26,755 bases of DNA from a virus: positions 1 through 26,755 of the IMG/VR virus record IMGVR_UViG_3300031758_000478; one strand, 5' to 3'. The notes beneath the pieces were generated by a model, which worked only from the letters and a program-made list of their open reading frames with translations, was not told the origin of the DNA and did not search any database. Below, piece after piece: positions 3,178 to 22,211 of this stretch. The translations under genes were made by a program, and so were the position numbers. The stretch's first letter is position 1. Every line of letters starts with the position of its first letter.

Positions 3178-3206
3178 AATATAACAAAGAAGGCCTGGTT
3201 TCCCAA
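3178..3206 (-). promoter_or_regulatory. Promoter of the clamp loader operon (TTGGGA-N17-TATATT)
   Basis: On the minus strand TTGGGA (3201-3206) is separated by exactly 17 nt from TATATT (3178-3183). The same arrangement precedes the polymerase, clamp, folE, dpdA-like and 20568 genes. The -35 box lies inside the terminator hairpin of the upstream gene. Only 8 nt separate the -10 box from the ATG at 3169, so the predicted transcript starts within about 2 nt of the start codon. Confidence 0.65.
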
Positions 3207-3210
3207 GCCT
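3181..3210 (-). terminator. Terminator-like hairpin with GAAA loop
   Basis: Minus strand: 8-bp stem AGGCTTGG/CCAGGCCT (one T-G wobble) closed by a GAAA tetraloop at 3191-3210, followed by TCTTTGTT. It starts 3 nt after the stop of the 3214 gene and overlaps the promoter of the next gene. The segment 3169-3214 is almost identical to 11391-11435. Confidence 0.65.
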
Positions 3211-3213
3211 AAT

Positions 3214-4107
3214 TTAATTTACTTCATTTTTTGGTATAAGATAATATGAATCTTTAGTAAGTCTTTCATTAAAATAATTGTCAGGAGGTATAACTTTTTT
3301 CCATGTTTCTCTCCATTTAGGGTCATTAAACATAGGCATAGGAATAAGTTTAGTGTTTAATTTTTCACCTTTTGAGTTTACCCATTCTCTGTCATTTTTA
3401 TAATCAGATCGATCTGCTATAAGATAATAATCTGGGTATTCGGAGGATATACCTGCTAGTATTCCTTTATCTTGAGTAGGTAGTGTATTTTTTAAAACAT
3501 TTAGGTTAGCATATACCTTAATAAAAGTTGTTTTCATATTAGGATAATACATTTCCTTTTTAGTATATGTTCTTTTTTCAGGAATATTTCCTATATTAAT
3601 ATCTTCAGGATTACCAGTTTTAGGTTGGCTATAGGGAATGTTAGATATAGGTGTACCTTGATATACTTTATAAGGTATATTAGCTTTTTCTAAAAGTTCA
3701 AGTATTTTAGGATTTACTGTTTCTTTTTTATTTAGAAATATATCTATACGTTTAAGATAAGGAATAAAATTAAATCTATCACCAGGTATCATTATTTGTT
3801 CTTCACCTAAATCTTCAGGATCATCTGAGTTAAAGGCTCCATCATAAGCAAAAGGGCGAATTTTATATTTGGTACTAATTTTATCTCCATCAAACATCAA
3901 TCTTGCTATTGATTTTGTTTTCATGTTTTGAAGATAACTAGTTTCCATATTTGGACGTATAGAAGTAGATACATATCCTTCTTCATTAGCAAAAATATAC
4001 CTAGTCTCTAAGATTTTTTTTAGATTTGATAAAGGAGTAAAATGATACAAGTCGCCTACTTGTTTGGCTTCAGTAATTTCCTTTAATAGATCAGTTAGTT
4101 TTATCAT
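3214..4107 (-). CDS. Possible ADP-ribosyltransferase-fold protein with N-terminal capsid-targeting-like tag
   Basis: 297 aa. Residues 1-13 (MIKLTDLLKEITE, then Ala14) end in I-T-E, matching the [L/I]-x-E site of T4-type prohead proteases. The next part reads DLYHFTPLSNLKKIL (19-33), GYVSTSIRP (44-52), ARLMFDGDKIS (68-78) and LGEEQIMIPG (100-109). A His in a first strand, an S-T-S strand and a later E-E-Q recall the three-part active site of ADP-ribosyltransferase and RNA 2'-phosphotransferase folds. I recall similar phage proteins, but the assignment is not secure. The C-terminal half (~150-297) is not recognised. The gene stands alone between two hairpins. T4 Alt, an ADP-ribosyltransferase packaged in the head by a similar tag, is the closest known analogy. 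Function is an inference. Confidence 0.5.
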   Translation of the reverse strand: MIKLTDLLKEITEAKQVGDLYHFTPLSNLKKILETRYIFANEEGYVSTSIRPNMETSYLQNMKTKSIARLMFDGDKISTKYKIRPFAYDGAFNSDDPEDLGEEQIMIPGDRFNFIPYLKRIDIFLNKKETVNPKILELLEKANIPYKVYQGTPISNIPYSQPKTGNPEDINIGNIPEKRTYTKKEMYYPNMKTTFIKVYANLNVLKNTLPTQDKGILAGISSEYPDYYLIADRSDYKNDREWVNSKGEKLNTKLIPMPMFNDPKWRETWKKVIPPDNYFNERLTKDSYYLIPKNEVN

Positions 4108-4112
4108 GTTTA

Positions 4113-4141
4113 TAAATATTAAAAAAGGCCTGATTTCTCAA
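4113..4141 (-). promoter_or_regulatory. Weak promoter candidate for the 3214 gene (TTGAGA-N17-TATTTA)
   Basis: TTGAGA (4136-4141) and TATTTA (4113-4118) on the minus strand show the same 17-nt spacing as the stronger copies elsewhere, but the -10 box is poor. It lies over the hairpin at 4126-4145, and the ATG follows 5 nt after the -10 box. Without it, the gene would depend on read-through of the hairpin. Confidence 0.35.
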
Positions 4142-4145
4142 GCCT
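4119..4145 (-). terminator. Terminator-like hairpin with GAAA loop and T-run
   Basis: Minus strand: AGGCTTGA/TCAGGCCT 8-bp stem (one wobble) with a GAAA tetraloop at 4126-4145, followed directly by TTTTTT. It ends the clamp-GroES-GroEL run about 25 nt after the stop of the 101-aa gene. Confidence 0.72.
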
Positions 4146-4170: not shown

Positions 4171-4476
4171 TTATAGATTATTTCTAATTTCTCTTTCCAA
4201 CATACCTATAATTTGGTCTTTATCATAATAACTCTTTATAAACTTATCTAACATCAAAAGTGTTTGTTCATCTTCCCAACCCCAATAATCATCAATAATT
4301 TGTTTTAATTCATCAAAAGATTGAGCGTTAGAAACATCTACATCTTGATCACCTTCTTGAAGATAATCTATTACAAAGTTTTTTAAAGATTGAAAAAAAT
4401 CATTTTGGTTTTCAATAATTTGACTTTCTGTAATCAGACCAGCCAACTTCTGCATTTTATAGAATTCTTTATTCAT
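4171..4476 (-). CDS. Small acidic protein with MQKLAGLI-type N-terminal tag (101 aa)
   Basis: 101 aa. The first 17 residues (MNKEFYKMQKLAGLITE, then Ser18) form a tag seen again in the 9139-9612 protein (EFKRMQKLAGLIKE). Both end in I-x-E, a T4 gp21-type cleavage signature. The rest is acidic and probably helical, with FFQSLKNFVIDYLQEGDQDV, a WGWEDEQ stretch and a basic C-terminal IGMLEREIRNNL. The body is not recognised. It is the last gene before a terminator, at the end of the sliding clamp-GroEL run. The proposal that the tag targets it to the prohead, where it is cut after Glu17, is an inference from the motif; the molecular function is unknown. Confidence 0.75.
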   Translation of the reverse strand: MNKEFYKMQKLAGLITESQIIENQNDFFQSLKNFVIDYLQEGDQDVDVSNAQSFDELKQIIDDYWGWEDEQTLLMLDKFIKSYYDKDQIIGMLEREIRNNL

Positions 4477-4503: not shown

Positions 4504-4740
4504 TTATCTATCTCCGTAAATATTATACTTTTTAGGAGGTGTAGGTACATCTTCTGCCTCTACAACAGCATAAATTTTACCTTGAAATGGAGACAAATGA
4601 AATTCTTTATATCCATTTTCTTGAAAAATATATTCTAAAGCCTCTGTTAGTGATTCTAAAATTGGAGTGTTAGTACCAGCAGGTGACCAACGGTCACCTG
4701 GTGGAACTCTATTTAATATTTCAATTTTTTGAGTGGCCAT
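4504..4740 (-). CDS. Unknown small protein downstream of GroEL (78 aa)
   Basis: 78 aa, not recognised. Its ATG shares one base with the GroEL stop (TAATG), so translation is probably coupled. Visible pieces: a Pro/Gly-rich PPGDRWSPAGTNTP near residues 13-26, a helix SLTEALEYIFQENGY, and a strand-like GKIYAVVEAEDVP. A perfect 9-bp inverted repeat lies in its coding sequence over the GDRWSP codons. No membrane segment or catalytic motif is visible. Its place right after the chaperonin genes could mean a chaperonin-related role, but there is no sequence support for that. Confidence 0.72.
   Translation of the reverse strand: MATQKIEILNRVPPGDRWSPAGTNTPILESLTEALEYIFQENGYKEFHLSPFQGKIYAVVEAEDVPTPPKKYNIYGDR
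4680..4700. repeat. Perfect inverted repeat, 9-bp arms, inside the 78-aa gene
   Basis: CAGGTGACC and its exact reverse complement GGTCACCTG are separated by 3 bases. The arms are GC-rich in a strongly AT-rich region, so the mRNA would form a stable stem-loop about 40 nt after the ATG of the gene that follows groEL. It has no T-run, so it is not a terminator. Confidence 0.6.
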
Positions 4741-9138: not shown

Positions 9139-9612
9139 TTAAGCTCCTAATGAATCATAAAACACATCATATAATTCATCTTCAGTATATTCTGTTTCAA
9201 TATCTTTTCCACTTTTAGAATATATATACCCTATTACTTCAAATTCAGCATCACTACATCCTTCAGGATCAAGTATTAAACCAGGAATTTCTTTTTCTAA
9301 TTCAGTTTTTGGATCAGGCATACTTAAAATCCATTTTTTATTATCTGGGAGGTCAATAAAATTAGAATATCCTATAACGTATTTTACTTTTTTGTTATCC
9401 TTAGCATCAAAGCCATCTGCTAATCCTTTTTCACAATAAAAAAATTTATAATTTTCTTCATTTTGATAATATTCAGGGGTATATTTTACTGCTAAATCAT
9501 CCTCAAAATTAAAATCTTCTAATTCTCCTTTATTATTAACAGAAGCTTCTTTAATTAAACCGGCCAACTTTTGCATTCTTTTGAACTCTTCAGATATAGT
9601 TTGTTTTTTCAT
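9139..9612 (-). CDS. Acidic protein with MQKLAGLI-type N-terminal tag, inserted in the polymerase locus (157 aa)
   Basis: 157 aa. Residues 8-22 (EEFKRMQKLAGLIKE, then Ala23) repeat the tag of the 4171-4476 protein and end in I-K-E, a T4 gp21-type cleavage signature. The body is strongly acidic (GELEDFNFEDDLAVKY, EKEIPGLILDPEGCSDAEFE, a final TEYTEDELYDVFYDS) with three aromatic clusters. It is not recognised. The upstream AATATTTATAATAAAATACTACAATG context differs from that of the flanking polymerase genes and resembles that of the 7817-7972 gene. The LAGLI string is not a LAGLIDADG endonuclease motif: the catalytic Asp is missing. A tagged, possibly packaged protein placed inside a polymerase gene pair is odd. 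Confidence 0.75.
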   Translation of the reverse strand: MKKQTISEEFKRMQKLAGLIKEASVNNKGELEDFNFEDDLAVKYTPEYYQNEENYKFFYCEKGLADGFDAKDNKKVKYVIGYSNFIDLPDNKKWILSMPDPKTELEKEIPGLILDPEGCSDAEFEVIGYIYSKSGKDIETEYTEDELYDVFYDSLGA

Positions 9613-11398: not shown

Positions 11399-11427
11399 AA
11401 TATAACAAAAAAGGCTTGGTTTCCCAA
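11399..11427 (-). promoter_or_regulatory. Promoter of the DNA polymerase gene (TTGGGA-N17-TATATT)
   Basis: TTGGGA (11422-11427) and TATATT (11399-11404) on the minus strand, 17 nt apart. The discriminator ATCTTAT is followed at once by the ATG at 11391, so mRNA would begin at or within 1-2 nt of the start codon. The -35 box is part of the hairpin at 11412-11431. Confidence 0.68.
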
Positions 11428-11431
11428 GCCT
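11405..11431 (-). terminator. Terminator hairpin after the fibre gene
   Basis: Minus strand: perfect 8-bp stem AGGCTTGG/CCAAGCCT with a GAAA tetraloop (11412-11431), followed by TTTTTTG. It lies about 23 nt after the stop of the 519-aa fibre gene and overlaps the polymerase promoter. Confidence 0.8.
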
Positions 11432-11454
11432 AATTTAAAGTTTATTTTTGTATT

Positions 11455-13612: not shown

Positions 13613-14107
13613 TTATTTATTTAAGAATTGTTGTAAATTTGGTTTAAAGTAATTAATACTCTTCATTACTTTTCTGTCATGACTACGATATACTATCCAA
13701 TAGTCACCTTGTTTTTCATAATGACATTGAGTACCTTGTTCTTGTTCTCTAACTCGAACAGTTAGATTAGCTTCTTCTTCAGTTTTACAAGCCTTAGACA
13801 TATTTGATGCTTGTACTTCAGCATATGCATCTTGTACTTTATCTTTTAGACCATGCAACATTGCTCCATTACCTAATGAAACATAAGTAATATCACATAG
13901 TGCATCTAGTACTTCTACAATATTTCCTGTTTCACAAGCATGTTTATATTCTTCTAGTTCCTCTAGAATAAAATTATAAACAAACATCCATTCTTTTTCA
14001 TCTGGAATATTTGGAGTATAATTGTTTGGTTTACCCATTGTAGCATTAAATTCTTCTACCTCGCTAACAAAAGGTACATAATTTTCTTTAGATTGAGACA
14101 TTTCCAT
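13613..14107 (-). CDS. MazG-like nucleotide pyrophosphohydrolase
   Basis: 164 aa. The core is EWMFVYNFILEELEEYKHACE (39-59) followed by NIVEVLDALCDITYVSLGNGAMLHG, the E-E-x-x-E ... E-x-x-D-x-x-x-D pattern of all-alpha NTP pyrophosphohydrolases (MazG/HisE type) that bind magnesium and cut NTPs to NMPs. The C-terminal third (HYEKQGDYWIVYRSHDRKVMKS) is a small beta addition. The first ATG overlaps folE by 20 bp; a second ATG two codons later is equally possible. It is co-transcribed with folE. It may remove unwanted nucleotides or adjust dNTP pools for modified DNA; the substrate is not readable from the sequence. Confidence 0.78.
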   Translation of the reverse strand: MEMSQSKENYVPFVSEVEEFNATMGKPNNYTPNIPDEKEWMFVYNFILEELEEYKHACETGNIVEVLDALCDITYVSLGNGAMLHGLKDKVQDAYAEVQASNMSKACKTEEEANLTVRVREQEQGTQCHYEKQGDYWIVYRSHDRKVMKSINYFKPNLQQFLNK

Positions 14108-14783
14108 TATTAATTTTTAGTGAATCAAAAAACTCTTTACGAGCTAAATTGTCGTTTTCCATAAACACGCCTGATGCTTTAGTAGTAATCATTGCAGCAC
14201 CTTGATGTTTAACACCTCTACAACTTACACAATTGTGAGATGCTACTATTGTTACTACAACACCTTTATTGCCTTCACAAACTTTATCTACTGCTTGATG
14301 AATAGCTGCAGTTAATTGTTCTTGAATTGCACCTCTTCTACCAAAGTGCTCTACAATACGATTTAGTTTAGATAAGCCAATTACTCGACCTTCTTTACCA
14401 GCAACATATCCAATATGAACTACTCCACCAATTGTTTGGTGGTGGTGAGAACACATTGAAGTCAGTGGGATATTACGCTCAATAATTACTCCATCATAAC
14501 CATCTGACGGAAATGAAGTAATATCAGTAAACCCGTTATAACGACCAGCCCATAGATCCTTAACATATGCTTTAGCCACACGACGAGGTGTGTCAGCTGA
14601 ATTAGGATCATTTTGCCAATCACATTTTAATGCTGTTAAGAAGTTACCAAAGTGAACTGTTGCTTCTTCAATCATCTGATTCTTTTCCTCATCTGTTAGA
14701 GGACGATCTAACGCTGAGCCATTAGCAAAACCATGTTTTACACACTCAATGTCATTGTGAAATTTTCTTCTATTTTCTTCCAT
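14088..14783 (-). CDS. folE: GTP cyclohydrolase I
   Basis: 231 aa, full length for the family. It converts GTP to 7,8-dihydroneopterin triphosphate, the first step of preQ0 and folate synthesis. TPRRVAKAYVKDL (65-77), the zinc site SMCSHHHQ (Cys111, His113, His114) and HNCVSCRGV with Cys185 are all present, as is GLSKLNRIVEHFGRR (136-150). The promoter at 14792-14820 lies just upstream with 8 nt from the -10 box to ATG. Genes for QueE, QueD, QueC and a DpdA-like enzyme are in the same window, so the role here is supply for 7-deazaguanine synthesis rather than folate. Confidence 0.95.
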   Translation of the reverse strand: MEENRRKFHNDIECVKHGFANGSALDRPLTDEEKNQMIEEATVHFGNFLTALKCDWQNDPNSADTPRRVAKAYVKDLWAGRYNGFTDITSFPSDGYDGVIIERNIPLTSMCSHHHQTIGGVVHIGYVAGKEGRVIGLSKLNRIVEHFGRRGAIQEQLTAAIHQAVDKVCEGNKGVVVTIVASHNCVSCRGVKHQGAAMITTKASGVFMENDNLARKEFFDSLKINNGNVSI

Positions 14784-14791
14784 ATACTTTT

Positions 14792-14820
14792 ATTATAATA
14801 AATTTTTATCAGACAGCCAA
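14792..14820 (-). promoter_or_regulatory. Promoter of folE (TTGGCT-N17-TATAAT)
   Basis: TTGGCT (14815-14820) and a perfect TATAAT (14792-14797) on the minus strand, 17 nt apart. The -35 box lies in the last codons of the hpt gene. AAAAGTAT then ATG at 14783: predicted leader of 0-3 nt. No hairpin is associated with this copy. Confidence 0.7.
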
Positions 14821-15318
14821 GATATAAGGGATAGATCTTTTATTTCCTTCCTCATCATCCATACCATAACCTACAACCCATTGATCTTTAATTTCAAAAC
14901 CATAAATTGAATTTACAGGCATATTAATTTCATTAATAGCACGTTTAATTAAAGTTACTATACTAACACTTGCAGGATTAAATTCTAAAAATATTTCTTT
15001 TAGTTTTTTCATTGTTACTCCTGAGTCGTAAATGTCATCTATAATATAAACATGTTTGTTTTCAGTGTCAATAGAGGGTTGAAGTAATATTTCTAGATCA
15101 CCTCGTTCTTTACCTTCGTATGATTTTACTTTAATAAAATCACATTGTGGATCAAGTGATGATAGTTTTTCTACTAATTTAGAGTAGAAAACAAAACCGC
15201 CATTTAAAACACATACCAATACAATTGGTATTTGCTCATTTTTATGACGGTTTTCGATTTGGGTAGCGATTTCATTGATTCGCTTTTCAATTTGGGATTT
15301 TTCAAATAGTACTTTCAT
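14809..15318 (-). CDS. hpt: Hypoxanthine/guanine phosphoribosyltransferase
   Basis: 169 aa. The PRPP-binding signature HVYIIDDIYDSGVTMKKL (89-106), the N-terminal VLNGGFVFYSKL and the C-terminal WVVGYGMDDEEGNKRSIPYI loop identify a purine phosphoribosyltransferase of the Hpt type, which makes IMP or GMP from the free base and PRPP. It overlaps the thioredoxin gene by 17 bp and is followed by folE. In this context GMP could feed GTP to FolE, and the enzyme could reuse guanine released when a DpdA-like transglycosylase swaps bases in DNA. That role is an inference; base specificity is not visible. Confidence 0.9.
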   Translation of the reverse strand: MKVLFEKSQIEKRINEIATQIENRHKNEQIPIVLVCVLNGGFVFYSKLVEKLSSLDPQCDFIKVKSYEGKERGDLEILLQPSIDTENKHVYIIDDIYDSGVTMKKLKEIFLEFNPASVSIVTLIKRAINEINMPVNSIYGFEIKDQWVVGYGMDDEEGNKRSIPYILAV

Positions 15319-15577
15319 AGAGACTTTTTATCATATCTAAACCTGGGTAATGTCTTATATTTCCTTTATTGGCTACAATAACGTGAGGATAGTAATCTAC
15401 AGCAAATTCTTGTTCTAGATCTTCATTTTCATTTATTCGTATTGTTCGGAAATTAAGTTTTTCAGAAATTTTTTGAATCATAGGAGCAGCTACTTTACAA
15501 GCGCCACACCAGTCAGCATAGAAAACTACAATGACGTTTTCTTTGTTTAAAGCCTCAGTTAGTAATTGTTTATTCAT
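15302..15577 (-). CDS. Thioredoxin-like protein with CGAC site (91 aa)
   Basis: 91 aa, slightly shorter than usual thioredoxins (about 105). VIVVFYADWCGACKVAAPMI contains the redox site Cys24-Gly-Ala-Cys27; DYYPHVIVANKG holds the usual cis-Pro region (P-H instead of P-T). It overlaps the QueE stop by one base (TAATG). A likely partner is the phage ribonucleotide reductase, which needs a dithiol reductant, but a role with QueE cannot be excluded. The Gly-Ala pair in the active site differs from the Ser-Pro pair of the second thioredoxin in this window, so the two may have different partners or redox potentials. Confidence 0.87.
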   Translation of the reverse strand: MNKQLLTEALNKENVIVVFYADWCGACKVAAPMIQKISEKLNFRTIRINENEDLEQEFAVDYYPHVIVANKGNIRHYPGLDMIKSLYESTI

Positions 15578-16347
15578 TATACTTCTCTTTTAGTGTCATA
15601 AGCGATAATGTGTTCTCTACCTGTAAAATTATATCCATTATTCATACACATTTCCATTACTATAGGATACATTTTAATCAATTCCTCTCTAGTATCACCA
15701 GCTGGCATAACCCATGTTTTCCATTTTGGAATATCCATCTCAACTCTAAATGCTTCAATTTCAGCTAATGTTTCCTCAGTACCATCCCAAACTGGTTTGT
15801 AGTGGTAATCATAATGATAATCTATCATTTTACGAATATTATCTTTATGAAGACGGAATTTGTTATGTTGGTCAATCATTTTCTGATCAACTTCTTTGCC
15901 CTGCGGTGTAAGGACACCAATCCTAGGTACACTATTAGTGAACTTAGGAGACAAAGATACCAAGCCAATTTGATGATCTGTTTCAATGAAATGAGAGCCT
16001 TCTGTTTCTATAGTAATAAATATACCTCTACTATAAGCAAAATGAGTCAATTCATTTACTAGATCAGGATGCATTGTAGGTGAACCACCTGTAAGCATCA
16101 TCTCTCTAATATGAGGATTATTATTATACATTTCAATGATATTATTGAAATTGTATTTGCCTTTTTCAGGATGGATACTAGTATACCAAGAATCACACCA
16201 TCCTCCTTCTCCAAACCAACATCTGTGAGTACATCCTGTAGTTCGAATAACGATAGTAGGCATTCCTGCTCTACTACCCTCGCTTTGAACTGCTGTATAT
16301 AACTCTACAATAGGTAAGGTCTTATTGTAATCTGTTATTCTGTTCAT
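15577..16347 (-). CDS. queE: 7-carboxy-7-deazaguanine synthase, radical SAM
   Basis: 256 aa. It converts carboxytetrahydropterin to 7-carboxy-7-deazaguanine with SAM and a 4Fe-4S cluster. Evidence: PIVELYTAVQSEGSRAGMPT (12-31), the cluster loop TTGCTHRCWFGEGGWCDSW with Cys39, Cys43 and Cys51, REMMLTGGSPTMHPDL and ITIETEGSHF. The Cys spacing C-x3-C-x7-C differs from the usual C-x3-C-x2-C and from the C-x14-C-x2-C of E. coli QueE. I recall the same loop in other phage QueE proteins. A Tyr/His-rich insert (MIDYHYDYHYKPVWDG) and C-terminal extension make it longer than bacterial QueE (about 220). Starts on the stop of the 83-aa gene. Confidence 0.92.
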   Translation of the reverse strand: MNRITDYNKTLPIVELYTAVQSEGSRAGMPTIVIRTTGCTHRCWFGEGGWCDSWYTSIHPEKGKYNFNNIIEMYNNNPHIREMMLTGGSPTMHPDLVNELTHFAYSRGIFITIETEGSHFIETDHQIGLVSLSPKFTNSVPRIGVLTPQGKEVDQKMIDQHNKFRLHKDNIRKMIDYHYDYHYKPVWDGTEETLAEIEAFRVEMDIPKWKTWVMPAGDTREELIKMYPIVMEMCMNNGYNFTGREHIIAYDTKREV

Positions 16348-16598
16348 TAAAGTTTTGCGCTATTAAAATGTAAATAAATCTCATTATTGTCTTCTGTGTA
16401 CTTGATATCAAAACACAAACTACATTTAGGATCAACCATTAATGTTTTAAGATGTTCTGTGGTTTGAAAATCACTCAAATCAGCATTGTTTAGAATCTCA
16501 AGTGCTAACTTGATATCACCAGCATCAGCTGATCCAAGCATGTTCTTAACATTTTCTGTGATTTCACTATCAAGTGTATGGATGTAACTTTTACTCAT
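16347..16598 (-). CDS. Unknown small protein upstream of queE (83 aa)
   Basis: 83 aa, not recognised. An N-terminal helical part (SEITENVKNMLGSADAGDIKLALEILNNADL) is followed by a short segment with a Cys pair (PKCSLCFDIKYTEDNNEIYLHF). The C-x-x-C could bind metal or be redox active, but two Cys alone are weak evidence. It is the first gene after the candidate promoter at 16617-16644 and overlaps queE by one base, so it is co-translated with the queE-thioredoxin-hpt run. Confidence 0.72.
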   Translation of the reverse strand: MSKSYIHTLDSEITENVKNMLGSADAGDIKLALEILNNADLSDFQTTEHLKTLMVDPKCSLCFDIKYTEDNNEIYLHFNSAKL

Positions 16599-16616
16599 AA
16601 CTCTTATTTTTATTTT

Positions 16617-16644
16617 AATATAATAATAATTTTTTTAAAGACAA
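16617..16644 (-). promoter_or_regulatory. Promoter candidate for the 83-aa gene and queE (TTGTCT-N16-TATATT)
   Basis: TTGTCT (16639-16644) with TATATT (16617-16622) at 16 nt (or TTTGTC at 17 nt). Weaker match to the -35 box than the other copies, with an 18-nt gap to the ATG ending in AAATAAGAGTTATG. Confidence 0.45.
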
Positions 16645-16646
16645 AC

Positions 16647-17111
16647 TTATTCTGAAAAACTTGCTGAGTTTCTTTCATGTTCATAAACTTCTACTTTAGT
16701 TACTCGAACACGATTTTCCGTTTCTAGTTTTAGAAAATCATTAATTGTGTTGAATAAGTATTCAGCAAATCGTTCACAACCTACATTGTCTAATATTCGT
16801 AGCTGGATAATACCATCCATATCCATTTGTTTGAAATGTTCTAAATATGGATCATCTTGAGCTATAATTGTGGTGTGGTCTAGTAGATAAGTAAAATAAT
16901 CTTTAGGAGATAGTCCATGTATAGTGTTTTTGGCTCTTTTCATCCCACCAAAATCAAATACCCAATTGCGTTCATCTAAATCACCTTCAAACCATACTTT
17001 AAAAGACACAGCATACCCATGCAAATATTTACAATGGGTATTTTCTGCTTTCCATTGACGGAAACAAGTACTGTATCCGTCAAACAATTTTGTTGATTGG
17101 AATTTACTCAT
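16647..17111 (-). CDS. queD: 6-carboxytetrahydropterin synthase family protein
   Basis: 154 aa. Family features are CKYLHGYAVSFKVWFEG (27-43), WVFDFGGMKRA (50-60), LLDHTTII (76-83) and YEHERNSASF near the end. The enzyme turns dihydroneopterin triphosphate into 6-carboxytetrahydropterin, the second step to preQ0. The catalytic Cys27 and His31 are kept. The usual H-G-H zinc motif is H-G-Y, and the usual F-x-A-A-H ligand is replaced by Cys16 in STCFRQW. I recall the same pattern in other phage QueD-like proteins, so it is probably a subfamily trait. It ends the run that begins at the DpdA-like gene. Assignment is supported by the three other pathway genes. Confidence 0.87.
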   Translation of the reverse strand: MSKFQSTKLFDGYSTCFRQWKAENTHCKYLHGYAVSFKVWFEGDLDERNWVFDFGGMKRAKNTIHGLSPKDYFTYLLDHTTIIAQDDPYLEHFKQMDMDGIIQLRILDNVGCERFAEYLFNTINDFLKLETENRVRVTKVEVYEHERNSASFSE

Positions 17112-17114
17112 GAT

Positions 17115-17375
17115 TTATTTTATAACATCGTTATAAGGTTCCCAAACAATACCATCATGGATTTGTCCATTTTCATCTGTTATAGACTCACCTGTAGGCA
17201 TTGCTAAGACAATATCATTGTTTTCAGTTTTACCAATAGCTATAAATCCAAATCCTTCACAGATAATGGGAGTATAGTAGTTTGGTTCTAAACCATCAGC
17301 AATTTCATTAATATCAAATTCTGAGGTCATTTGTGGATCATTAAGATCACACCATTGTTTGCTAAATTCAGCCAT
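17115..17375 (-). CDS. Unknown small protein between thioredoxin and queD (86 aa)
   Basis: 86 aa, acidic, not recognised. Pieces: QWCDLNDPQMTSEFDINEIAD, then PNYYTPIICEGFGFIAIGK and DIVLAMPTGESITDENG, ending VWEPYNDVIK. A small beta-rich domain is likely. It overlaps the thioredoxin by 8 bp and lies 3 bp before queD, so it is translated with both. No motif suggests a function. Confidence 0.75.
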   Translation of the reverse strand: MAEFSKQWCDLNDPQMTSEFDINEIADGLEPNYYTPIICEGFGFIAIGKTENNDIVLAMPTGESITDENGQIHDGIVWEPYNDVIK

Positions 17376-17622
17376 AATTTAAAAAATCTATTATTTGGTT
17401 AAAAGTTTTTACTCCTGTAAATCTACGAGACTCTTGTCCGTTTTCTAATAAAATTACTGTAGGTATATTTCTGACTCCATATCTTTGGACAATTTGAGGA
17501 TCTGTATAATCCACATTTATCTTTTGAACTGGGATTTGTCTTCGTACTTCATCTAGTACTGGTCCTAGTGTTTGACATGGGCTACACCATTCAGCACTAA
17601 AATATAATAATTGTTTACTCAT
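17368..17622 (-). CDS. Thioredoxin-like protein with CSPC site (84 aa)
   Basis: 84 aa from the ATG at 17622, which overlaps the TGA of the 52-aa gene (ATGA). A frame further upstream would only add residues read out of phase from that gene. LLYFSAEWCSPCQTLGPVLDEV contains Cys13-Ser-Pro-Cys16, YGVRNIPTVILLENGQ has the cis-Pro loop, and RRFTGVKTFNQIIDFL the C-terminal helix. It is a compact thioredoxin lacking the first strand and helix of the longer forms. Likely reductant for ribonucleotide reductase; it sits in the queC-queD run instead of next to nrdA. Confidence 0.88.
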   Translation of the reverse strand: MSKQLLYFSAEWCSPCQTLGPVLDEVRRQIPVQKINVDYTDPQIVQRYGVRNIPTVILLENGQESRRFTGVKTFNQIIDFLNYG

Positions 17623-17777
17623 ACTAATTCCTCCCATATTCCTACTACTTCTGCTAAAGCTAATCCTCCGAATGCTAGTACGGGCATTCCTAGGATTCCT
17701 AAAACACAAGATATAATTCTAAGTCCTGATTTAGCAAAACTAATTTGCTGGTGTAATTTAGGATCTGGTTGTTTCAT
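17619..17777 (-). CDS. Small membrane protein (52 aa)
   Basis: A complete 52-codon frame from ATG 17777 to TGA 17619-17621. It opens MKQPDPKLHQQISFAKSGLR and continues with a hydrophobic stretch (IISCVLGILGMPVLAFGGLA) that can span a membrane, ending LAEVVGIWEELV. I recall a widespread small phage protein with the same layout: H-Q-x-I-S-F-x-K-S-x-L-R, membrane segment, then E-V-V-G-I-x-E-E-L-V. Function unknown. Its start overlaps the queC end by 20 bp and its stop overlaps the thioredoxin start, so it is embedded in the operon. Confidence 0.78.
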   Translation of the reverse strand: MKQPDPKLHQQISFAKSGLRIISCVLGILGMPVLAFGGLALAEVVGIWEELV

Positions 17778-18669
17778 GATTTTCTAATATTTGTTTTACA
17801 TGTTTAACTACTGTTTCCCAACTTACAGGACCAGTCTCATCAGCATAACTTACAGGATCTGGTTTTCCAAGTTTAAGGAATGCTTCAATACGTTCTACAG
17901 ATGAAGCTGATTTATAATCTGAATACCATTCACCAAATTTAGTTCTATGTGTTTCTTCTACTCTAGAAGATGCTGGTTCATATGGTATCCAAATTGGCTT
18001 ATAAGATGTGTTAGTACGGCTATATACCTCGTTAAAATTAAGACCTAGGCACTCACAACACTTGTCACCATCCTCTAGAATAGAGTATTTATCTCCACTT
18101 AAATACGGTGTATAATGATATACTTTTTCAGCTCCCCAATTACCTGATTTAAATGCTTCAAAATCAGCATCTCTAAATTCTTGTCTACAATCAGGATAAA
18201 TAGCATGGTCACCAGCATGAATACCCATTGCAATAGCGCATTCAGTATTCTTTTGTTCAGCAATTGATAATGCAACCGCTTGAATAATAGAACTAAATAT
18301 TTTATTACGATTTGGAACTACTGTTGCTTTCATATTTTCTTCAGCATAATGTCCTTCAGGTACTTCTTCACCTCCAGTCACTAATGCTGAATTTAATAGT
18401 GTTGATAAACCATCTAGTGTAATTACTTGGTGTTTCACTTTAGGGAAATGATGCATAATAACTTCTGATGTTTCTGATTTATGTTTAGTTTCATCAGCTT
18501 TGCTATTAATATATTTAACTAATTCCTTAGCACGTTCTAATTCTACATTATGTTTTTGTCCATAATCAAATGATAGTGCTGTAACTTCATAGCCATTGGC
18601 AAGTAGATGAAGTAATAAAGTAGAGCTATCCATTCCTCCACTCAATGATAATACTGCTTGTTTTTTCAT
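17758..18669 (-). CDS. queC: 7-cyano-7-deazaguanine (preQ0) synthase
   Basis: 303 aa from the ATG at 18669, 1 nt after the upstream stop. The PP-loop SGGMDSS (10-16), DYGQKHNVEL (35-44) and VVPNRNKIFSSIIQAVA (117-133) identify QueC, which uses ATP and ammonia to convert 7-carboxy-7-deazaguanine to preQ0. Bacterial QueC is about 220-230 aa; this one has a longer C-terminal part. The usual zinc region (a Cys near T-x-S-C-Y, then C-G-x-C-G-x-C-V-E-R) is replaced by TNTSYKP and YKSASSVERIEAF, so the ligand cysteines are Ser, Ser and Asp. A CCEC cluster at 204-207 might substitute. I recall a similar form in other phage QueC proteins. Confidence 0.93.
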   Translation of the reverse strand: MKKQAVLSLSGGMDSSTLLLHLLANGYEVTALSFDYGQKHNVELERAKELVKYINSKADETKHKSETSEVIMHHFPKVKHQVITLDGLSTLLNSALVTGGEEVPEGHYAEENMKATVVPNRNKIFSSIIQAVALSIAEQKNTECAIAMGIHAGDHAIYPDCRQEFRDADFEAFKSGNWGAEKVYHYTPYLSGDKYSILEDGDKCCECLGLNFNEVYSRTNTSYKPIWIPYEPASSRVEETHRTKFGEWYSDYKSASSVERIEAFLKLGKPDPVSYADETGPVSWETVVKHVKQILENHETTRS

Positions 18670-18670
18670 A

Positions 18671-18967
18671 TTAACAATATTTTTTATATAAATTTTCAAT
18701 AAATTCTATTTCTTCATTATCCATAGAATGAAATCTAGGGATTAAATCAATCATTTTTGAAGCAAAATCTTTTTGTAAATAAGATAATTTCATAGATTCT
18801 GTATCTACTGTTATTCCATCAACTTTATAATCTTTTAGAAATCCATCTTCATCTAACCATTTAGCCATTTCTTTACAAGATGAATTATCCATCTCTGAAT
18901 AGATTTCATCTAAATCAATATCTACATCTACAGATATACTATTACGACTACTTCTCCATTTTCTCAT
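18671..18967 (-). CDS. Unknown acidic protein upstream of queC (98 aa)
   Basis: 98 aa. A basic start (MRKWRSSRNS) is followed by a very acidic segment (VDVDIDLDEIYSEMD), then helices (KEMAKWLDEDGFLKDY, IEFIENLYKKYC). Phage proteins with a similar R-W-R-S-S-R-N-S start are familiar to me but have no known function. The stop is 1 nt before queC and the start 2 nt after the 73-aa gene, so it belongs to the dpdA-queC run. Confidence 0.75.
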   Translation of the reverse strand: MRKWRSSRNSISVDVDIDLDEIYSEMDNSSCKEMAKWLDEDGFLKDYKVDGITVDTESMKLSYLQKDFASKMIDLIPRFHSMDNEEIEFIENLYKKYC

Positions 18968-18969
18968 AA

Positions 18970-19191
18970 TTAAAAAGGTAATTCATTATTATTAAGTTCT
19001 TTAATTTTAGCAAAATAACTATCTAACCATGATACTGGGTATAGCATTACCTTTCCTTTATATACAGGATTAGATACTTCTCTTTGTTGCATAACTATTT
19101 TATCATGTTTTGCTGTTTCAAAAACAATTTTTCCTAAAGTAGGGCCAGCTGCTTTACCTAAGTATTCAAAAAGTGATTTAAATTCTTCCAT
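18970..19191 (-). CDS. Unknown small protein downstream of the dpdA-like gene (73 aa)
   Basis: 73 aa. LFEYLGKAAGPTLGKIVFETA is followed by VMQQREVSNPVYKGKVMLYP and SWLDSYFAKIKELN. Mixed alpha/beta, basic in the middle, no recognised motif. It starts 6 bp after the dpdA-like stop in the AAATAAAAGGTTATG context. Function unknown. Confidence 0.73.
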   Translation of the reverse strand: MEEFKSLFEYLGKAAGPTLGKIVFETAKHDKIVMQQREVSNPVYKGKVMLYPVSWLDSYFAKIKELNNNELPF

Positions 19192-19197
19192 AACCTT

Positions 19198-19992
19198 TTA
19201 TTTTATATTGTTTATTAATTTGAAATCCATTATGTTGTTATAGATGTAAGACCATTTTCTATTTAGATCTTCAGAAGACATTTCCATAACATCATCTATT
19301 CGAGTTTTAGGCTTTTCATCTAATCCCCAAACATTATATTTTATTCTTTCAATACCCGCCATTATTGGATTTGAAGTGTCAATTGTTTCAATAAATGGCA
19401 TATCTTTATAATAGATAAATTCTTGTGGTACAGCACATCCTAATAAGTGTATTCTGTCATGTTTACTAATAACATCATCATTATATAATTTACTTACAAC
19501 ATGTACTCTACCTAAAGCAGTAGCAATTGCCCTATTTGGATGAGATGATAATTCCTGGTAGTATTTAGCTCCATATGAAAATGCTATTTTTCTATATCCT
19601 AAAGCCTGGTATTTGATATAACATTCTCTAGCTTCATCAATACTTTTAGCTTGTACTACTGCTACTTTAAGTGTGTCTTTAGGTAATTTAATTCTAGACC
19701 ATTCAGAAGCATTATTGATAGAAGATTCCATATCTTCCCAAACATCAGGAACAATAAATTCATCTGGTTTAAGTATTTCAATCCAGTATAATAAACGTTC
19801 TGTATTATATGCTTCTCCTAACTCATGGAGAGAATTGTCCATTATAATATAACGACCTTGTTTTTTAGCATCTAAAAAATATTCTTTATACTGCTCATAC
19901 TTGTCCAATAGGTGAGGCAAACAGTAATCATAATGATTAAAACTAGGACTAGCATTTAATAAATTTAATGGAACCTCGTGAGATATTTTCAT
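19198..19992 (-). CDS. dpdA: DpdA-like DNA guanine transglycosylase (TGT fold)
   Basis: 264 aa. The order of motifs follows tRNA-guanine transglycosylase: RYIIMDNSLHELGE (48-60) in the position of the D-S-G-G substrate site, FIVPDVWED (79-87), AFSYG (137-141) for the glycine-rich strand, HLLGCAVPQEF (182-192) matching the Y-L-M-G-V-G-x-P segment, and IETIDTSNP (201-209), where Asp205 would be the nucleophile. The zinc-binding C-terminal domain of tRNA enzymes is missing, as in phage DpdA proteins that insert preQ0-type bases into DNA. The gene shares an operon with queC and queD. A tRNA substrate cannot be fully excluded. It has its own promoter at 20010-20038 and a leader of about 11 nt. Confidence 0.82.
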   Translation of the reverse strand: MKISHEVPLNLLNASPSFNHYDYCLPHLLDKYEQYKEYFLDAKKQGRYIIMDNSLHELGEAYNTERLLYWIEILKPDEFIVPDVWEDMESSINNASEWSRIKLPKDTLKVAVVQAKSIDEARECYIKYQALGYRKIAFSYGAKYYQELSSHPNRAIATALGRVHVVSKLYNDDVISKHDRIHLLGCAVPQEFIYYKDMPFIETIDTSNPIMAGIERIKYNVWGLDEKPKTRIDDVMEMSSEDLNRKWSYIYNNIMDFKLINNIK

Positions 19993-20626: not shown

Positions 20627-20854
20627 TTATTTCATATTATTTAAAAAAGCAACCACATCTGGTATTTCATCTTTAAAGATGTACATTTGACTATGTACTC
20701 TATATCCATCATTTGAATCTAGTTTTGTAATCCATACACCTTTTTTATCACTTTTTAAAATAACAGTTTTGTTAGGACCAAGTTTAACAGTAGCCTCATT
20801 TAAAATTTTTTCTACTTCTTCTTTAATGATTTGCTTAAGTTCAGATTTTTTCAT
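20627..20854 (-). CDS. Small protein with MKKSEL-type N-terminal tag (75 aa)
   Basis: 75 aa. The first 20 residues, MKKSELKQIIKEEVEKILNE, followed by Ala21, are almost the same as in the next gene upstream (MKKSELRQIIKEEVDKVLKE). The tag ends in L-N-E, a T4-type prohead protease signature. The remaining 55 residues form a predicted small beta domain (TVKLGPNKTVILKSDKKG, VWITKLDSNDGYRVHSQMY) with a C-terminal helix. It is not recognised. The stop of the upstream gene is 4 bp away. If the tag is cut off after Glu20 the mature protein would be about 6 kDa, similar in size to T4 internal peptides or proteins. Confidence 0.75.
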   Translation of the reverse strand: MKKSELKQIIKEEVEKILNEATVKLGPNKTVILKSDKKGVWITKLDSNDGYRVHSQMYIFKDEIPDVVAFLNNMK

Positions 20855-20858
20855 TATA

Positions 20859-21473
20859 TTATTTATTCATTAATAGGTAGTAGTCTTCTAGTACATCTCT
20901 TGTTTTTTTAGTAGGCTTATCATCATAATAGTCTGCTGCAAAGTGAAGAAGGATCTTATCACCATCTATCTTTACTATGTCAGCGAACAGTAAATCATTC
21001 ATTCTAACAATCTCATCACCAACTTTAAGTTTAGTTTGAGGTGTTATTCTTGTCCACTTACCAGCCTTAAACTCCTTTTTTGCTCCATAATTTGCCCAGT
21101 TTGGTATTGCAGTTGGGTCTATGTCATTTTTGATATATGCAATCACATCATCAACAGACTTTTGCATTACATCATTATTACGTCCACCAGCCCCTATTAC
21201 ATTATTAGCTAATTGCTCTGCGGAGTTCATTCGCTTATTCTGTCCTATCTTTTTAAAACCTAGTTTGTAGATAGCGGTAAATAGGTTTATGGTATCCTTT
21301 TTGACTTTAGGATTTTTTGGAAACTTGTTAAAGCGTTCCATAGCTTTGGTAATGATGTTTTTCCACTCATCGCCAGGATTGTTAAAGTCATATGTACTTG
21401 GTATTGATGATGCTTCTTTTAATACCTTATCTACTTCTTCTTTGATGATTTGTCTTAGTTCTGATTTTTTCAT
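20859..21473 (-). CDS. Protein with MKKSEL-type N-terminal tag (204 aa)
   Basis: 204 aa. The tag MKKSELRQIIKEEVDKVLKE (1-20, then Ala21) ends in L-K-E. The body has a helical part (NIITKAMERFNKFPKNPKVKK, TINLFTAIYKLGFKKIGQNK) and, near residue 140-190, a beta part (WTRITPQTKLKVGDEIVRMN, ADIVKIDGDKILLHFAADYY) that resembles a small SH3-like barrel. The N-terminal body is basic, consistent with DNA contact. Not recognised as a whole. Its 5' flank carries the leftover nrdA 3' end (21505-21591), which shows that this gene once followed an nrdA gene directly. Confidence 0.77.
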   Translation of the reverse strand: MKKSELRQIIKEEVDKVLKEASSIPSTYDFNNPGDEWKNIITKAMERFNKFPKNPKVKKDTINLFTAIYKLGFKKIGQNKRMNSAEQLANNVIGAGGRNNDVMQKSVDDVIAYIKNDIDPTAIPNWANYGAKKEFKAGKWTRITPQTKLKVGDEIVRMNDLLFADIVKIDGDKILLHFAADYYDDKPTKKTRDVLEDYYLLMNK

Positions 21474-21767: not shown

Positions 21768-22094
21768 TTACTTTAACATTTTTAATAATACTGCCGCAGC
21801 TTTCTGTTGTGCAGTTACTGGAGCTTCTGCAGTATCACGTAGATTGTCATATGCTTTAATTAGTTTACTATCGCCGCTATCATATACAGCATCAGATGAA
21901 TTGCCTAATTTATCAATGATATTGTCAGTCATATCTTCACCTTTAGCGGTACCAGCCAAAATGTCTGTTACATTGTCTTTAAGATATTCATTATCGTAAT
22001 ACGATAATGATTCGTTAATAGTCTTTTTCGTATTTTCACGCAATACATTGCGAACTTCTTCGCGGATGAGTTTTTTAAATTCTGATACTTTCAT
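21768..22094 (-). CDS. Small protein with MKVSEF-type N-terminal tag, downstream of nrdA (108 aa)
   Basis: 108 aa from the ATG at 22094; a longer frame from 22121 would add MYNKHLIKK, but the tag start aligns with the other two tagged genes. The tag MKVSEFKKLIREEVRNVLRE (1-20, then Asn21) ends in L-R-E. The body is helical and polar (TINESLSYYDNEYLKDNVTD, ILAGTAKGEDMTDNIIDKLG, ending VTAQQKAAAVLLKMLK). Not recognised. The gene lies in the segment between the two nrdA-end repeats, so it probably arrived with the present nrdA 3' end. Confidence 0.72.
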   Translation of the reverse strand: MKVSEFKKLIREEVRNVLRENTKKTINESLSYYDNEYLKDNVTDILAGTAKGEDMTDNIIDKLGNSSDAVYDSGDSKLIKAYDNLRDTAEAPVTAQQKAAAVLLKMLK

Positions 22095-22100
22095 TTTTTT

Positions 22101-22211
22101 TATTAAATGTTTATTATACATATATTATCCCTCACAAGAGATACATTCTGATAGTCGTTGTAAATTGTCTCCTCTTAATACTGATTCAGTACGTAGATAA
22201 TATAATGTTTT
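22101..22211. repeat. Long direct repeat, copy 2 (3' end of the intact nrdA plus leader)
   Basis: Counterpart of 21481-21591, inside and just after the intact nrdA gene. Confidence 0.85.

Follow-up and report, generated by a model that had tools for sequence, protein, structure and literature searches.

An ADP-ribosyltransferase-fold protein of an uncultured phage, probably carried in the head behind a cleavable leader

The gene at positions 3214-4107 of the window (the whole 26,755-nucleotide stretch of viral DNA analysed here, IMG/VR record IMGVR_UViG_3300031758_000478) encodes what is, on its predicted structure, a domain of the ADP-ribosyltransferase (ART) superfamily. Its best explanation, in which we have good confidence, is a mono-ADP-ribosyltransferase that becomes incorporated into the phage head, is matured by the prohead protease and delivered with the DNA. 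The ART fold rests on structure prediction and fold comparison; the activity, the target and the steps of packaging, cutting and injection are what we infer around it. In the proposed mechanism, the 13-residue leader would target the precursor to the prohead core and a gp21-type (S77) prohead protease would cut after ITE-13, so that the mature enzyme begins AKQVG. Once injected, the enzyme would draw on host NAD+, through His22, Ser47 and Glu102/103, to modify either a nucleic acid or a protein of the host at an early stage of infection. Phage T4 Alt is known from the literature as a packaged, injected ADP-ribosyltransferase. Since DarT and Tpt1, which have the nearest folds, act on nucleic acids, a nucleic-acid target appears by analogy slightly more probable than RNA polymerase, the target of Alt, and nothing in this analysis implicates RNA polymerase as what the window ART would modify.

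The open reading frame lies on the reverse strand, starts with ATG and encodes 297 amino acids, with the N-terminus MIKLTDLLKEITEAKQVG. The frame is intact, and the protein recurs in two independent contigs (100% identity in L001, 93% in L002). The motifs picked out in the initial annotation, namely MIKLTDLLKEITE followed by Ala, Y21-H-F-T24, G44-Y-V-S-T-S49 and E102-E-Q104, are all present in the translation, and the gene does lie, as was claimed, between two hairpins (Table 1). These form a near-identical, terminator-like pair, two being found against 0.4 expected from shuffles. In L002 the upstream hairpin (positions 1314-1333) is also situated 19 nt before the ATG and its stem bases are altered in a compensatory manner, with pairing preserved. 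The hairpin AGGCTTGxGAAAxCAGGCCT is present three times in the window, at 3191-3210, 4126-4145 and 11411-11432. Sigma-70-like promoter sites around the ART gene were not above the level of shuffled sequence. The gene is placed between clamp-loader and chaperonin genes, in replication/chaperonin surroundings outside any head operon.

Table 1. Positions of the ART gene, its predicted elements and the other leader-bearing open reading frames (ORFs) in the window.
Feature	Position	Strand	Basis or remark
ART gene	3214..4107	-	297 aa ORF; intact in L001, L002
Leader, residues 1-13 MIKLTDLLKEITE, predicted capsid-targeting propeptide	4069..4107	-	Leader common to many unrelated proteins
Predicted prohead-protease site, ITE then A, cut between residues 13/14	4066..4071	-	gp21 motif L/I-X-E; family junction counts
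ART domain, residues 14 to about 165	3613..4068	-	AlphaFold2 pLDDT and structural matches
YHFT, residues 21-24, strand 1, candidate NAD-binding His22	4036..4047	-	Y21, H22, T24 in 53/53
STS, residues 47-49, strand 2, Ser47	3961..3969	-	S47 in 53/53
DGDKIS, residues 73-78, family signature	3874..3891	-	G74, K76, S78 in 53/53
EEQ, residues 102-104, strand 5 start, candidate catalytic Glu102/Glu103	3796..3804	-	E102 51/53, E103 47/53
C-terminal region, residues 166-297	3217..3612	-	Retained in closest relatives; swapped in others, e.g. L003
Terminator-like hairpin 3' of ART gene, AGGCTTGGGAAACCAGGCCT	3191..3210	-	
Terminator-like hairpin 19 nt 5' of ART start codon, AGGCTTGAGAAATCAGGCCT	4126..4145	-	
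Leader-bearing ORF	4171..4476	-	MNKEFYKMQKLAGLITE, then SQ
Leader-bearing ORF	9139..9612	-	MKKQTISEEFKRMQKLAGLIKE, then A
Leader-bearing ORF	20627..20854	-	MKKSELKQIIKEEVEKILNE, then A
Leader-bearing ORF	20859..21473	-	MKKSELRQIIKEEVDKVLKE, then A
Leader-bearing ORF	21768..22121	-	Internal start MKVSEFKKLIREEVRNVLRE, then N, likely

Comparison of the window protein with Pfam, PHROGs, PDB sequences and isolate phages gave no match, and relatives were therefore reached through IMG/VR. Iterated searches there yielded in order L003 and L007-L010, then L012-L018 and then 181 relatives, the large scan finding the latter in 268 candidate stretches, with 80 retained. Conservation was counted over 53 diverse members of the ART family. 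A scan of bacterial and archaeal genome contigs revealed no ART family homologue or prophage at the sensitivity used. Distant domains were found in two isolate phages, Salmonella phage Sen-NF (98% profile probability) and Salicola phage SCTP-2 (97%), where the related proteins are annotated merely as hypothetical, and BFVD gives as its best match an uncharacterised phage protein (57% identity). In the 440-kb SCTP-2 (L020, 2995-4149), the distant ART homologue starts MNLNESLSATVFHYT, with LNE and then S just ahead of the domain and without KQVG. Two copies of the ART domain occur in each of L045 and L076, while L073 has two adjacent copies.

The idea that the protein bears a tag of the head-cargo type is supported by comparison with T4, in which gp21 cuts after L/I-X-E and the head cargo bears capsid targeting sequences of 10-19 residues (PMC9026906). 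Processing of these T4 sequences is prevented when their final position holds Asp. The window junction, ITE-13 followed by Ala, fits the L/I-X-E motif, and T4 Alt is itself cleaved at ITE-6 (PMC5694885), a site that we confirmed in the T4 sequence. Within the family, (L/I)xE followed by A, G or S stands directly ahead of KQVG in 44 of 47 sequence clusters, (L/I)xE precedes the ART domain in 58 of 63 distinct contexts, and the junction columns of the 53 members hold Leu or Ile at P3 in 51, Glu at P1 in 51 and Ala, Gly or Ser at P1' in all 53, although part of this conservation, as well as the invariance of K15 and Q16, is ascertainment, because the search patterns contained KQVGxLYH and, for the early seeds, also EAKQ. 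The later scan alone, with patterns free of P3-P1', gave (L/I)xE in 46 of 51 contexts. The P2 position is variable (N, T, L, K, Q, S, E and others) while P3, P1 and P1' are fixed or nearly so, as would be expected for L/I-X-E.

This site terminates three sorts of upstream sequence: the MIKLxDILxE leader, another leader (as in L091, where the same ART follows RLQELAGIDIHE and then G) and unrelated domains in large ORFs. Where ART domains are embedded in large ORFs and the MIKLxDILxE leader is missing, (L/I)xE is present in 15 of 15 distinct cases; the background of [LI]xE[AGSR] is 0.37% per position. The MIKLxDILxE leader is found, moreover, on 32 unrelated non-ART proteins (after deduplication), 29 of which have (L/I)xE at residues 9-17, compared with 22% of 416 controls (Fisher p 5e-15) and with an expectation of 11.6 on shuffling. 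The modules GTGKKPxGSGRR, RIADRK and DPFGL mostly have (L/I)xE a few residues upstream as well, whether stand-alone or embedded. Such a pattern of leaders and sites would be predicted if a maturation protease acted on exchangeable cargo, and the putative leader and cleavage site are now backed by comparative sequence evidence well beyond that of the initial annotation. The wider suggestion of a tagged set of proteins is also borne out: five further window ORFs (Table 1) have leaders ending (L/I)xE, of the two types xxRMQKLAGLIxE and MKKSELxQIIKEEVxKxLxE, with A, S or N following the site, and the MIKLxDILxE leader is common to many unrelated proteins of related phages. To judge from these N-termini, the five products are probably head cargo.

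No head genes fall within the window, a fragment of 26.8 kb, and the evidence for an S77 protease comes from relatives (L008, long contigs and immuto). In L008 (ART identity 67-68% across the first 170 aa), an S77 prohead protease gene is followed by leader-bearing genes, the ART, a scaffold-like gene and the major head protein, the Peptidase_S77 gene 5' of the ART being recognised with an E-value of 1.5e-27. In L007 the ART gene is upstream of the terminase and portal genes. Of 22 long related contigs, mostly fragments, 11 contain S77. The nearest isolate by helicase (54.5%), Flavobacterium phage immuto (vB_FspM_immuto, host LMO8), has an S77 protease, gp20, gp23 and leader-bearing genes of all three window types; a pattern search detected no ART in it.

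These observations bear on the alternative that an active ART is made in the infected cell and stays unpackaged, acting in counter-defence, host shut-off or superinfection exclusion, with the leader doing something else, for example docking onto a phage complex. The window gene does sit among replication and chaperonin genes, away from head genes, and the Sen-NF and SCTP-2 domains, which are without the MIKLxDILxE leader, indicate that the domain can work leaderless. We nevertheless consider this alternative unlikely: several relatives are found in head or terminase operons, and the junction of (L/I)xE with a small residue persists where other domains replace the leader, in all 15 such cases, a fact that a maturation cut explains and a docking helix does not.

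The proposal of an ART fold was tested by structure prediction and fold comparison, and it stood. An AlphaFold2 model made with the window protein and 53 relatives has a pLDDT of 81.6, with values mostly of 82-97 in the core (residues 20-150) except for a loop near 91-100. The order of elements is strand 19-25 (containing H22), helix 26-35, strand 45-49 (S47), strand 67-73, helix 74-80, strand 82-86, strand 102-106 (E102 first) and strand 118-125, so that H22 falls on strand 1, S47 on strand 2 and E102/E103 where strand 5 begins; residues 1-18 are modelled as a helix (4-10) followed by coil, at a pLDDT below that of the core. Among the VIA-align matches listed, 50 of 50 solved structures are ART-fold proteins, the best of those listed being yeast Tpt1 (Z 10.0, 110 aligned, rmsd 2.8), with DarT1 within 1 Z of it (Z 9.1, 140 aligned, rmsd 3.8) and CC0527 at Z 8.8. 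A second, shallower model led to the same finding. Foldseek returned a probability of 1.00 to Tpt1 and DarT, but with E-values of only about 3e-3, and no single database match is strong alone, the window protein itself being without a Pfam or PHROG match. When members were scanned one by one at E<=0.1, Pfam Tox-ART-HYD1 is matched by 20 of the 53 (best E 1.2e-6), DarT (PF14487) weakly by four (best E 0.031) and Tpt1 by one; the window protein matches neither of the first two. The sequence-profile search with alignment A4 had Tpt1 as its best match (E 0.1). That of the PDB with A5 placed EtpA first, which was rejected as spurious, this being a repetitive protein that aligns to the C-terminal region; DarT there has an E-value of 1.7. 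The family most likely belongs on the DarT/Tpt1/HYD1 side of the ART superfamily.

With Tpt1 leading both the structural matches listed and the A4 search, the protein might be read as a Tpt1/KptA-like (PF01885) RNA 2'-phosphotransferase for phage RNA repair. The likeness is confined to the catalytic domain, however, archaeal Tpt1 chains aligning from about residue 85-90, so that the N-terminal Tpt1 domain is missing from the window protein. Furthermore, the ART family retains a conserved Glu pair at strand 5, which to our knowledge Tpt1 does not use, and a head-targeting leader would be odd for an RNA-repair enzyme. This reading is accordingly improbable.

The residues themselves favour an active enzyme. 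Y21, H22, T24, S47, G74, K76 and S78 are invariant among the 53 members, with E102 in 51 and E103 in 47, and the His, Ser and Glu of the ART pattern are thereby conserved on the expected elements (H22 on strand 1, S47 on strand 2, E102 on strand 5). At this level of conservation the YHFT, STS and EEQ motifs are far from chance. The initial annotation had singled out His22, Ser47 and Glu103; the first two are indeed conserved, but Glu103 is slightly less so than Glu102. The ART domain is thus, from its residue conservation, very probably catalytic. A catalytically dead ART fold, acting as a structural or binding protein of the head core, would suit the location that the leader suggests, but the retention of H22, S47, E102 and E103 at the above frequencies despite wide divergence argues for retained catalysis and makes this alternative very improbable. 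Least probable of all is the toxin of a DarTG-like toxin-antitoxin pair with the 101-aa ORF 4171-4476 as antitoxin: the DarT toxin is among the nearest folds and the small ORF adjoins the ART gene, yet the pairing was rejected because the ORF is absent beside the 93%-identical L002 copy, where the ART directly follows a homologue of ORF 4504-4740, and, in addition, the 101-aa ORF carries its own leader, the neighbours differ in other relatives and a hairpin lies between the two genes.

The favoured reading, a packaged and injected ART, is best compared with T4 Alt. The short N-terminal propeptide ends ITE in each (ITE-6 in T4; ITE-13, as predicted, in the window protein), at the protease site, and each gene stands apart from the main head operon, but Alt is of 682 aa against 297 and, according to the relevant passage of PMC5512222, belongs to the R-S-E clade with Arg on strand 1, where the window family has His (53/53). 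Homology to T4 Alt was rejected, with an hhalign probability of 0.2% over 20 columns, in keeping with the initial suggestion of a different ART subfamily; T4 Alt is not among the structural matches listed, which is uninformative either way. The window ART is most likely Alt-like in its delivery and situated elsewhere in the superfamily. DarT, a DNA thymidine ADP-ribosyltransferase, shares the ART fold (Z up to 9.1) and YHxT at strand 1, whereas the window family is without an antitoxin partner, has the signature DGDKLSxKYKI and a predicted cleavable leader, and gives weak, sub-threshold profile matches. Tox-ART-HYD1 (PF15633) is matched in its first part, around YHxT, by the relatives inspected, but strand 5 of the window family differs in carrying Glu-Glu. 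As regards the leader, the capsid targeting sequences of T4 IPI, IPII and IPIII are also short propeptides that are common to unrelated head proteins and end L/I-X-E (PMC9026906), although their leader sequences and phage group are different and, in the relatives of the window, the cassettes can also be joined within large ORFs, where LxE separates the domains. A further parallel is offered by polyvalent proteins and packaged ARTs, since ARTs are found there in multidomain, probably injected phage proteins (relevant passages of PMC5512222 and PMC9503650).

Large multidomain ORFs that open with an NMN-adenylyltransferase-like domain (PF01467) were seen in L041, L050, L052, L053, L056, L060, L061, L063, L064 and L017. 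The domains that follow vary in combination (zinc ribbon, ART, HExxH protease-like and 5'-nucleotidase-like), and (L/I)xE occurs at several of the junctions. Flavobacterium phage immuto has an ART-less version, a 907-aa ORF of NMN-adenylyltransferase type (gp088; NC_055915, 107131-109854). It is an evenly balanced proposition that a large group of uncultured phages with T4-type heads, having its nearest isolate on Flavobacterium, organises head cargo as modular cassettes. ART, NMN-adenylyltransferase-like, zinc ribbon, HExxH protease and nucleotidase domains would then swap between single genes with interchangeable leaders and (L/I)xE-bounded polyproteins, from which the prohead protease would free an injected arsenal that includes a paired NAD+-making and NAD+-using activity.

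Iyer et al. (2022, PMC9503650) used gene context to predict that phage ARTs, those of myoviruses above all, are packaged; the same had been predicted for polyvalent proteins in 2017 (PMC5512222). In the passages concerned, both papers argue from gene context and fusions and contain no logic of leaders or LxE cassettes; in the text consulted, 'prohead' is absent from the former, and 'prohead protease' appears once in the latter. A search of the open-access literature found no paper tying such leaders or LxE-bounded polyproteins to the window ART family. Packaged phage ARTs in general were already broadly predicted, then, while the unannotated ART family and the interchangeable leader and polyprotein cassettes are new. 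If the interpretation is right, a leader or (L/I)xE boundary together with an S77 protease would allow the probable head cargo of many uncultured phages to be catalogued from sequence alone, something that arguments from context cannot achieve by themselves. An unannotated family of injected ARTs would join the list headed by T4 Alt, and a cultured relative, Flavobacterium phage immuto, could be named for testing the leader and the cutting rule.

Elsewhere in the window, positions 14088-19992 hold QueC/QueD/QueE/GTP-cyclohydrolase-like and transglycosylase-like genes, as in immuto, and these Que-type genes suggest 7-deazaguanine modification of the phage DNA.
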